DNA of 64,000 nt from positions 3,162,001 through 3,226,000 of the forward strand of contig NZ_CP031467.1 in the NCBI RefSeq assembly GCF_003368325.1, written 5' to 3'. The stretch comes from Paraburkholderia caffeinilytica. GTDB lineage: Bacteria > Pseudomonadota > Gammaproteobacteria > Burkholderiales > Burkholderiaceae. A program made the translations under genes and the position numbers. Positions 14,853-18,039 of this stretch are shown in pieces. Position 1 is the stretch's first letter, and every line of letters begins with the position of its first letter. Below the pieces are notes generated by a model, which did not search any database, had not been told where the DNA came from, and saw only the letters and a list, made by a program, of their open reading frames with translations.

Positions 14853-15454
14853 CTTAGCCACAGCCATCGCGCGACATGGCCAGGCACCGCGCATGCCCAA
14901 GTTCGACGTAGCGGTGAAAACAGCAGGCGTATCAAGAGCTTGCCGATTTTGCCGGGCAGTTATGCACAGCCTTCTGAACAAAAACTGGGGATAACTTTGT
15001 GGCCGCTGTCCGGGCGGTTTGCCTGTGAGGTTTAGCCCGTTCTTCAAGAGTCCGGTTTTTAATCGCATTGTGTGCTGTTGTTAGCGCCCGTAGCGCTTTC
15101 TGGCGCTATCTATCACGCTTTCGTGGTCACGTGCTACGCCCCCGTTTTTTCCCTTCCGGCTGCCACAGGTTCGAGTGTCAGCCGCTGATCTCTTTCGCGT
15201 ACGAATATCCCTCCTCTCTTGTTCCGATTGTTGTCACTTCGACGCGGTGGTGACTGACGGGCTACTGCGTGTTTCCCCGCGGATTGCGTAGGCGCCGTGA
15301 GCGCGACGTTTGTACTGGCACAGCGGAAATGTAGTTTTAGGAATTGTCGGATAGCGGGGATGGAATGCTCCTTATAGGGTGCTTGGGTCTCAAACAAGTA
15401 AAACAAATAAGGATGACTATAAAAAACAGAAGGTCTACAGAGAGTCCTGCAGGC
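14853..15454. other. Gene-free region upstream of the RHS gene
   Basis: About 600 bases with no credible gene, more A+T-rich than its surroundings. TTATGCACA at 14960–14968 and the complement of TTATCCCCA at 14986–14994 each differ by one base from the DnaA-box consensus, but there is no origin context. The stretch before the RHS gene presumably contains its promoter; no strong −35/−10 pair is visible. Confidence 0.4.
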
Positions 15455-17779
15455 ATGATGGCCCGCCTGCTGACCGCATTCATGCTGCTCGTGGTCGCGT
15501 TTGGCGCCAACGCGGACGATTGCTTCACGCTTTACTCAAAGTCCGGTGCAACGCCGGGTTCAAAGACCTGCAAGATTGACGTGACTAGCAATACCCCAGG
15601 CGGGATGGGCAACTACGCCTGTATCAATGACCTCGCTCTAATCGAGCAGTGGTGCAACGCAACCGACAATCCGTCCGATGACTCCTGCCCGGTGGCAGAC
15701 CCGGTGTTTCCAGCAAACGGCAACGTGACGATTTCCGAAGCTGACTTTGCCAGCGGTGATACGTCTCCCCTTGTCTTTCATCGAACATATCTTTCGAAGC
15801 CCTACGACAAGACGCAGACTGCGATGGGCGGCTACTGGGTCAACAACTGGCAGCGAAGACTTGATCTGTCGGCGGTTAATGCGAGCACGCCGAAAATCGT
15901 CGCTTATCGGGGTAACGGGCAGCCTCTGACATTCAAGTGGATTAGCGGAGCGTGGGCCGTGCCGGGAACCGCGGGTCTCTCCCTAACGAAAGCCGGCGAC
16001 GGGTACTTATACCTCAAGGACGAACTGCTCGGTACGACCGAAGCCTATGCGGAGATCAGCGGCAAGTTCTATTCCGAAACAACCCGCACGGGTGTGATCC
16101 GCAAGGTTTTCTATGACGGCAGGCAGCGGCTGTCGGCGATCGCCTGGTGGCCGGCCGATAACGTAATACCGGCAACAGCGACATCAATCAGGCTGGAATA
16201 CGACAGTAGCGACCGCGTCATTACCTTGGTCGATCCTTTGGGAATGCCCACCGACTATGCCTACGACGGGAAAGGCAATCTTGCATCGGTAACCAGACCC
16301 TATGGCTACGTTCGTCAGTATCTCTACGAGGACGCCCGTTTTCCAAACGCATTGACAGGCGTAAAGGACGAATCCGGATCGCGGGTTGCGACGTGGACCT
16401 ACGATTCCAGCGGACGTGCAATCTCGGTCACGCATCCCGACACGACACGGAATGTGTCGCTCAGCTACGGTTCCGGTACGACGACGCTCAGCGACCTATC
16501 TGGCACCAGCACATACTCCTTTGATGCCGGAGTCACCTTGCGTCCTCGAACAATTACTACGCCAGCGGGCGCGGTATCGAGGACGTGGGATTCGGCAGGG
16601 AATCTGAAGCAGAGGCAGACGCCAGATGGAGGTGTCCAGTACATCTGGGACAGCGCCAACCGGCCAACGAAAGCAATTGCAACCGTTACCGGAAATAAGA
16701 CCGTAACGACGATTGAGTACGCCGATGCCAGTTCATTGCGTCCGCATCTCGTTGCGACGCCGGGCAAGATCCGTGCGTTCGTCTACGACGCGCAGGGCAA
16801 CGCCACTGGCTACGCGGAGGTGCAAACGACTGACCTGACAGGCGAACAGGGGATGCAGGCGGTCGGGGCGGGCAGCAAGACGACGGTCGGCGCAAGTTAC
16901 GACGGAGCGGGCCGTCTCCTGTCAGCCACGGTCATCGAGGACGGGCAGAAGCTTGAGGACTGGACCTATACGTACGACGCAAAGGGCAACATCGCCACGA
17001 CGAAGGATGCTGTATCGGGGTGGGCGATGCGAACGCTTGAGCGTAACGCCGCGAACCGGGCGACACAGATAGCCGGTAATAGCGGGCAGGCAAGCATCAC
17101 TTACTATGGTAGTCGCGTTACGTCGTTTCAGTATAACGAACCGGCAAGTTCGGTTAATGGCGGACTCGCCCGTGTACTGGCAGTCGACTATCAATACGCT
17201 GCGAATGGCTCGGTGTCGTCACATTCGGCGAAGGTCTCGACTAACGGCGCGTGGTGGCAACCGATCAGCGACGCTGAGCTAGGCGTGTGGCTGACCAATT
17301 GGGAGTTGGGCAACGACCCGGTTGCGCCGCCGCCTATGCTCACGGGAATCAAGGGAGATGCCGGGGCCTTCGTTCCGGAAATGTGCGTTGAATGCTACAT
17401 GGCGTGGAAAGCGAAGTTCACAGGGAAGCTTTTCGATAGTGAATTGAGCGATACATTGCCGACTTGGGGTGAGACAACCGAGCTAATGCTGAGCGATCAG
17501 TCGCAGGTTCCTTATCCTACTCTTGTGCCAGACCTGACTGGCTCCGCGAAGAGGTCAATGCTTTACGGCGCGCTCTTCGGAGCCGCGAGCGGTGACGGGG
17601 GTATGGTTAAATGTGGGAGCCGCGGTGATATAGAGTGGCGTGAGGGGGAATGTCATGCGAAGTATGAATCAGATATGCGTTTGTGCGCTTCGATCGCCTA
17701 CCCGATGGGCGGCAAGCGTGGCGTCGCGCTATGCAAACAGCAGGCATTCCTAGACTATCAAGAGTGCAGAGGGTATTGA
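15455..17779 (+). CDS. Secreted RHS/YD-repeat protein, short form, possible toxin
   Basis: A 774-residue protein beginning with a Sec-type signal peptide (MMARLLTAFMLLVVAFGANA, cut before DD). A DUF6531-like entry region follows (ISEADFASGDTSPLVFHRTY), then YD repeats such as YDSSDRV, YDGKGNLASV, YDSSGRAISV, YDAQGNATG and YDAKGNIATT to about residue 550. The remaining C-terminus does not resemble the repeats and ends in a cysteine-rich block (CHAKYESDMRLCASIAYP, then CKQQAFLDYQEC). Full RHS toxins are usually around 1,400 residues with a DPxGL core-end motif; that motif is absent here. The start at 15455 has CAGAGAG 10 bases upstream; ATGs at 15413 and 15344 are alternatives. Its stop overlaps the next small ORF. 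Confidence 0.8.
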   Translation: MMARLLTAFMLLVVAFGANADDCFTLYSKSGATPGSKTCKIDVTSNTPGGMGNYACINDLALIEQWCNATDNPSDDSCPVADPVFPANGNVTISEADFASGDTSPLVFHRTYLSKPYDKTQTAMGGYWVNNWQRRLDLSAVNASTPKIVAYRGNGQPLTFKWISGAWAVPGTAGLSLTKAGDGYLYLKDELLGTTEAYAEISGKFYSETTRTGVIRKVFYDGRQRLSAIAWWPADNVIPATATSIRLEYDSSDRVITLVDPLGMPTDYAYDGKGNLASVTRPYGYVRQYLYEDARFPNALTGVKDESGSRVATWTYDSSGRAISVTHPDTTRNVSLSYGSGTTTLSDLSGTSTYSFDAGVTLRPRTITTPAGAVSRTWDSAGNLKQRQTPDGGVQYIWDSANRPTKAIATVTGNKTVTTIEYADASSLRPHLVATPGKIRAFVYDAQGNATGYAEVQTTDLTGEQGMQAVGAGSKTTVGASYDGAGRLLSATVIEDGQKLEDWTYTYDAKGNIATTKDAVSGWAMRTLERNAANRATQIAGNSGQASITYYGSRVTSFQYNEPASSVNGGLARVLAVDYQYAANGSVSSHSAKVSTNGAWWQPISDAELGVWLTNWELGNDPVAPPPMLTGIKGDAGAFVPEMCVECYMAWKAKFTGKLFDSELSDTLPTWGETTELMLSDQSQVPYPTLVPDLTGSAKRSMLYGALFGAASGDGGMVKCGSRGDIEWREGECHAKYESDMRLCASIAYPMGGKRGVALCKQQAFLDYQECRGY

Positions 17780-18039
17780 TGGCTATTGATCCACCCCGTT
17801 CCGTAGTTCTGAACTACGACCAAGACAGTCAGCGATTGAATGTGCAGTTAGTTGAACCTGCCAAGCTGGCCCCGCTTCTGGCTGGAAAATTCACAGTGCC
17901 AATCCTGCTAGACGAATTCGATTTCAGGCTTGACGACGAGTTCGCGCGTCGGCTTGGAGTCGCAATGCTCAATGCGATCGCCTTGGGTCAGCCTGAAATC
18001 AGGCAATATATGACTGTCACGCAGCAACCAATCGACTAG
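17779..18039 (+). CDS. Small ORF coupled to the RHS gene, candidate immunity protein
   Basis: An 86-residue acidic, cytosolic-looking protein with no signal peptide or membrane segment. Its ATG shares one base with the RHS stop codon (TGATG), so translation is probably coupled and the two products are needed together. It contains hydrophobic β-like stretches (RSVVLNYDQDSQRLNVQL) and a central PILLDEFDFRLDDEFARRLG. Polymorphic RHS toxins are normally followed directly by a small immunity gene, and position, size and acidity fit. I do not recognise the sequence family, so the immunity role is inferred from context only. Confidence 0.65.
   Translation: MAIDPPRSVVLNYDQDSQRLNVQLVEPAKLAPLLAGKFTVPILLDEFDFRLDDEFARRLGVAMLNAIALGQPEIRQYMTVTQQPID

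Follow-up and report, generated by a model that had tools for sequence, protein, structure and literature searches.

The window analysed here, 64,000 nucleotides from the 8.32 Mb, three-contig genome of Paraburkholderia caffeinilytica, contains a short RHS gene and a small open reading frame (ORF) that overlaps its end. The RHS gene, its parts and the small ORF all lie on the forward strand. Delimited by its ORF and by matches across the genus, the RHS gene occupies 15455..17779 (stop codon included) and encodes a protein of 774 aa. Its start codon is uncertain: an in-frame ATG at 15413 or TTG at 15344, both upstream, is also possible. The N-terminus, MMARLLTAFMLLVVAFGANA, shows a hydrophobic segment and an ANA site by eye. 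Residues 1–20 (15455..15514) thus resemble a signal peptide with putative cleavage after ANA, in agreement with the first-pass annotation of the window. That annotation had also described a DUF6531-like segment and YD repeats, and both are borne out by profile matches. Pfam DUF6531 (PF20148, E=2.7e-10) covers residues 82–160 (15698..15934), and a YD/RHS repeat region with approximate limits, the 3' one inferred, lies at 16199..17314. The repeats are marked in NCBIfam by YD_repeat_2x (TIGR01643) and in Pfam by RHS_repeat (PF05593, E=1.5e-22), which matches in six stretches, the best at residues 249–284. An RHS-core model is absent from the NCBIfam matches and a PAAR domain from the Pfam matches, in each case up to E=1. 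The DPxGL motif of the core end is missing, as first reported; its nearest counterpart, DPLGM at residue 260, falls inside the repeats.

Downstream of the repeats, the sequence and its trunk relatives identify a CxxC boundary motif, CVEC, at residues 644–647 (17384..17395). This is followed by a conserved pre-tip segment (residues 648–718, 17396..17608) and by a variable tip of 56 residues (719–774, 17609..17776), the proposed toxin domain. The pre-tip segment is defined by alignment A3 and by nucleotide distances, which average 0.26 here and 0.41 in the tip. The initial description of a tip placed directly after the repeats was wrong, since CVEC and a conserved stretch some 70 residues long intervene and the tip starts at about residue 719. 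To call the protein about half the usual length was fair: the sole canonical DPLGL-type RHS protein found with the same tip is a frame of 1767 aa.

The second ORF (17779..18039) encodes 86 aa and is the proposed immunity gene. It overlaps the RHS stop by one shared base in TGATG (17777..17781) and its product is acidic (computed pI 4.6), both as originally noted; the overlap suggests translational coupling. No signal peptide is seen by eye in the 86-aa protein. GC content falls from 0.584 in the trunk through 0.542 in the tip to 0.517 in the partner, against 0.638 for the window, as if a cassette of tip and partner had been acquired. The five neighbouring genes scanned encode two glycosyltransferases, RdgC, a transglutaminase-like protein and an MFS transporter, and no T6SS gene is among them.

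The variable tip and the 86-aa partner

The tip is the divergent, cysteine-rich C-terminus recognized at the outset. It has cysteines at residues 720, 733, 744, 760 and 771, the last four of which form a twin CX10C. The spacing CX10C–loop–CX10C, with CRG following, is invariant in a 33-row tip alignment. The twin motif is kept in 88 of 90 distinct full-length copies, L204 and L205 each lacking one cysteine. Pfam scans of 33 members gave no alignment to RHS repeats, as the first-pass annotation had expected, and no other significant match; a reading of the tip as ordinary RHS repeats is rejected on this basis. Pfam reportedly includes the toxin and Imm families named in Zhang et al. 2012. NCBIfam and PADLOC return no match for the tip, a search of PDB sequences gives 0 matches up to E=10, and no catalytic signature is recognized. 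Colicin E5 was rejected as the identity of the window's tip, because that domain sits on other relatives. No family in Pfam, NCBIfam or PADLOC matches the 86-aa protein, and its PDB sequence matches, all to CFA/I fimbrial subunit B entries (best E=0.008, about 30 positions), are taken as chance.

In the AlphaFold2 model of the tail (mean pLDDT 50.7), blocks within the tip reach 70–84 and the rest is unusable. The tip is predicted to be helical and is drawn not as a hairpin but as one continuous helix (residues 98–143 of the modelled piece). Contrary to the single-helix model, we infer a stapled hairpin, because of the glycine-bearing loop and the cysteine spacing. CHCH (twin CX9C) proteins also carry paired cysteines in helices. 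This likeness is a structural analogy only: the spacing in the tip is CX10C, and the Pfam CHCH matches in two of the 33 tips are not significant (best E=0.14). The partner is modelled at low confidence (pLDDT 65.0) as a beta hairpin with two helices, and a Foldseek search with this model yields nothing at E<=0.001, the best listed match having E=1.2. The predicted structures of tip and partner are too weak to name a fold.

The short RHS trunk in Paraburkholderia

The 774-aa protein is matched at E<=0.001 in 107 of 144 genomes of the genus, in some only via the repeats of long RHS proteins. Among the matches listed, 27 besides the window's own span the tip at 62–85% identity, and three of the 27 have an in-frame stop; many of the others listed end near residue 650. 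Seventeen named relatives share at least 60% identity, 15 of them from Paraburkholderia and the others from Burkholderia sp. OK233 and a Rudaea MAG. A named record annotates the pair of one relative as 'DUF6531 domain-containing protein' and 'hypothetical protein'. With the whole protein as query, tblastn against plasmids finds 864 records, one of which (P. aromaticivorans) covers at least 80% of the query.

A trunk set was assembled from 90 loci, including that of the window. Seven with frames below 680 aa were dropped, leaving 83 proteins, that of the window among them, with open frames of 724–894 aa; some rows are near-copies, and in L026, L030, L035, L111 and L116 the tail is cut or shifted. 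The excluded loci and damaged tails could be taken to mean that the RHS gene is decaying, its short length and missing DPxGL being marks of truncation and the small ORF a chance frame. This is scarcely credible, because the 83 trunk proteins have the short architecture and the CxxC boundary in common and the protein encoded by the small ORF is conserved across 39 aligned rows, at a fixed position. Pseudogene and chance-ORF readings were rejected on these grounds. CxxC (CVEC, CIEC, CPEC, CGGC etc.) lies in the last 30% of 83/83 trunk proteins, a recurrent RHS tip boundary other than DPxGL, and DPxG[LW] is found in 0/83. In residues 1–70 of the open frame, 79 of the 83 have a hydrophobic 12-mer and four fall below the threshold; this count is a rough signal-peptide test, with the frame counted from the preceding stop.

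Behind the CxxC motif, trunk relatives bear several unrelated tips, most of them with a different small downstream ORF. Six alternative tips were scanned against Pfam: that of L071 is a Colicin_E5 RNase domain (E=9e-31), and the other five have no match at 0.01. One of four downstream proteins scanned for such tips matches DUF6984. Judged from sequence, the trunk serves as a polymorphic scaffold within Paraburkholderia.

Two further groups of loci were observed. L071, L076 and L078 have the same trunk, a CIEC boundary, a colicin E5-type tip (assigned by Pfam scan in L071 and by eye in the other two) and a downstream ORF of 120–130 aa. The host genome itself contains a second short RHS protein (L005:5371-7797; G000:C1:2021451-2023739), 42% identical, with a CVDC boundary and a different cysteine tip, a twin CX3C (CREKC...CVNDC); a small ORF of its own follows this gene. 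The twin CX3C class comprises 15 loci by eye.

Linkage, carriers and spread of tip and partner

The small ORF had been expected to be conserved beside RHS tips, and this is what is found. Adjacency was defined, in the fetched loci, as a partner profile match lying between −90 and +150 bases from the tip stop. Of the 90 distinct full-length tips, 89 adjoin a partner at E<=1, 87 at 0.01 and 79 at 1e-4; the count is circular for the 38 neighbours that are rows of the partner profile itself and not for the other 52. In 51 of the 90 the match starts, as in the window, with the final base of the stop. Same-trunk loci without the tip give 0/57 at the same thresholds (E<=1, 0.01 and 1e-4); 58 such loci had been picked for other tips, and one was dropped that also has a tip-profile match. 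The tip without a partner is that of L222. An earlier, looser pattern count placed the partner beside 43 of 44. At L130:1331-1759 a tip-like ORF precedes another tip/partner pair by about 1.4 kb. The loose pattern gives it no partner, although L222 is the one miss in the profile search; any partner of this ORF would be weak or partial.

Tip and partner also vary together. For protein distances at 23 full-length loci, the tip–partner correlation is r=0.67 (0 of 5000 permutations as high) and the tip–trunk correlation r=0.02 (permutation fraction 0.37). The partial tip–partner correlation given the trunk is likewise 0.67, and r=0.63 for all 43 pairs. L017 and L029 have trunks that are 61% identical, with tips at 88% and partners at 92%; L017 and L059 have trunks at 97%, tips at 44% and partners at 36%. 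At the nucleotide level (24 loci, the same 23 plus L054), the correlation is 0.81 for tip and partner, 0.39 for tip and adjacent upstream segment, and 0.155 for partner and the next 300 bases. The tip tracks the partner much more closely than the upstream segment and does not track the trunk, nor does the partner track the bases that follow; therefore the exchanged unit is tip plus partner. Read from these distances, the co-variation shows joint transfer of the two. Joint transfer alone can make neighbours co-vary without a functional pair, and such a pair would be its simplest, though not its only, cause.

The 90 distinct tips are distributed over several kinds of carrier. RHS frames of at least 700 aa bear 19 of them, one frame being long and 18 short, and open frames of 200–456 aa without a BLAST match to the trunk bear 48. 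Another 10 are on pieces of RHS genes, either broken or truncated at the end of the locus, and the last 13 lie on frames shorter than 200 aa. The 1767-aa RHS frame (L214) has Kelch, Ig-like and DUF6531 domains and bears the tip after DPLGL, with the partner downstream. PAAR domains are found on two carriers, L169 (E=2e-12) and L218 (E=5.2e-9), again with the partner downstream. Eight carriers of 200–456 aa were scanned against Pfam, where only L169 gave a significant match; three further ones gave none. One cassette thus crosses Sec-like, long-RHS and PAAR carriers. At L163–L182 and L126–L128, several unrelated and unannotated N-terminal regions bear the tip, many with a common linker like 'STPLGDAQPFEY...AARGVSE'; these regions may be undescribed effector carriers.

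The range of carriers bears on a different role for the tip, as an adhesin, a receptor-binding piece or a structural end-piece under phage or host selection, with the partner as regulator or hitchhiker. A small, cysteine-rich tip of diverse sequence (the mean nucleotide distance of 0.41 given above), in which no catalytic motif is recognized, would suit such a role. PAAR proteins, however, are a kind that carries toxic effectors, and the tip module is found on them. A colicin E5 RNase domain occupies the same position on the trunk of a relative, and no partner match was found in the 57 same-trunk loci that lack the tip. An adhesin or end-piece is accordingly most improbable.

Toxin tips and their antidotes have been found mainly by resemblance to known families. 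The present pair matches no family in Pfam, NCBIfam or PADLOC and is nevertheless common in the genus: of 144 genomes, 69 have a tip match and 77 a partner match. Within the family, the tip is matched at E<=0.001 in 62 of 359 genomes and in seven of 25 genera. Among 398 genomes of the phylum, strong matches to tip and partner occur only in the window's own genome and in G392, of the same family; these scans also gave weak matches at E of about 2e-4 to 0.009. In the genome of the window itself, tip and partner occur once each.

Orphan tip/immunity cassettes are present in the relatives L219, L220 and L221, where 5, 6 and 4 extra partner genes lie behind the three full-length relatives. All 15 have profile matches below 1e-41. 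Eleven tip pieces adjoin the array partners and only three keep all four cysteines, the other eight having lost cysteines or being cut short. Immunity genes would be expected to behave in this way, the antidotes being retained as the toxins decay. RHS and CDI loci have been described with orphan modules and with immunity genes in strings (PMC3150448; PMC3482391). At L219:3824-4885, the place that corresponds to L041:7781-8803, the orphan cassettes look mosaic by eye, one half of the tip resembling one subtype and the other half or the partner another, which suggests recombination inside the module.

The arrays also weigh on the proposal that the small ORF encodes not an immunity protein but a chaperone, or an adaptor for export, dedicated to the tip. 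A chaperone, too, might be acidic, coupled to its gene, free of a signal peptide and matched to the tip subtype. Orphan partners count against it, because a chaperone without a client would be expected to go and an immunity gene to stay. The excess of partner over tip matches in the genus points the same way, weakly, as the partner profile is longer, and on PAAR and long RHS carriers, too, the tip comes with the partner. A chaperone role is thus unlikely.

Proposed mechanism and relation to known systems

What the locus carries is very probably a short RHS protein that bears a polymorphic toxin/immunity cassette. The compact toxin–immunity pair with an unrecognized tip, put forward in the first-pass annotation, finds support in the linkage of tip and partner, in their co-variation and in the other carriers. 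The YD repeats of RHS proteins in general form a shell or stalk. A working scheme would comprise the following steps. (i) The RHS protein would be exported across the inner membrane by Sec. (ii) The YD repeats of the 774-aa protein would provide the shell or stalk. (iii) The last 56 residues would be a toxic tip, passed to neighbouring, mostly related, bacteria. (iv) This tip may, tentatively, be small and helical, with two CX10C pairs as staples, more probably binding a target than acting as a known enzyme. (v) The 86-aa product, because it has no visible signal peptide, would most likely act in the cytoplasm and neutralize the tip there, in producer cells and their kin.

A partner that lacks a signal peptide indicates action in the cytoplasm, and the conserved cysteine pairs indicate a tip that folds outside the cytoplasm. 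If the tip acts in the cytoplasm, this sits badly with a toxin held by disulfides, because these would be reduced there. The tension between the two is the most interesting mechanistic question here. A more speculative and rather doubtful extension is a new superfamily of non-enzymatic toxins of about 56 aa, built on a twin CX10C helical module, carried in Burkholderiaceae by short Sec-exported CxxC RHS proteins, by DPxGL RHS proteins and by PAAR/T6SS-type proteins, and with an activity that depends on redox conditions (envelope versus cytoplasm). The tip would then be oxidized and stable in transit and would be opened, or would bind metal, in the cytoplasm, where the cognate immunity protein would be waiting.

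Within Pfam, NCBIfam, PADLOC, PDB sequences, the genome scans and the open-access literature, the tip and its candidate immunity family are best filed as new, on an unusual short RHS carrier. The string "CX10C" was not found among the listed open-access literature matches. No mention of the tip, the partner or the CxxC boundary was found in the available portions of PMC3482391 and PMC3150448. Being defined and compact, the pair offers a way to an antibacterial mode of action that is possibly new.

Three known groups invite comparison. T6SS PAAR effectors are alike in that the same tip and partner occur on L169 and L218. The window protein differs in having no PAAR match and a start like that of a Sec substrate, and its filing as a T6SS Rhs effector was rejected for these reasons. 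Zhang et al. (2012; PMC3482391) list a signal peptide with RHS repeats among Sec/T2SS export types, and the toxins so exported resemble the window protein in joining a signal-peptide or signal-peptide-like start to RHS repeats; they differ in that the tip and partner of the window have no Pfam family. The closest parallel is Rhs-CT/RhsI (Poole et al. 2011; PMC3150448). It shares YD repeats, a variable C-terminal tip, a small downstream gene, orphan tip/immunity cassettes and the exchange of the tip together with the downstream gene. Rhs-CT tips are delimited there by PxxxxDPxGL, whereas the boundary here is CxxC and the protein is about half as long. From its sequence features, the system at this locus appears to work like Rhs-CT/RhsI, the features open to testing being present apart from the DPxGL boundary.
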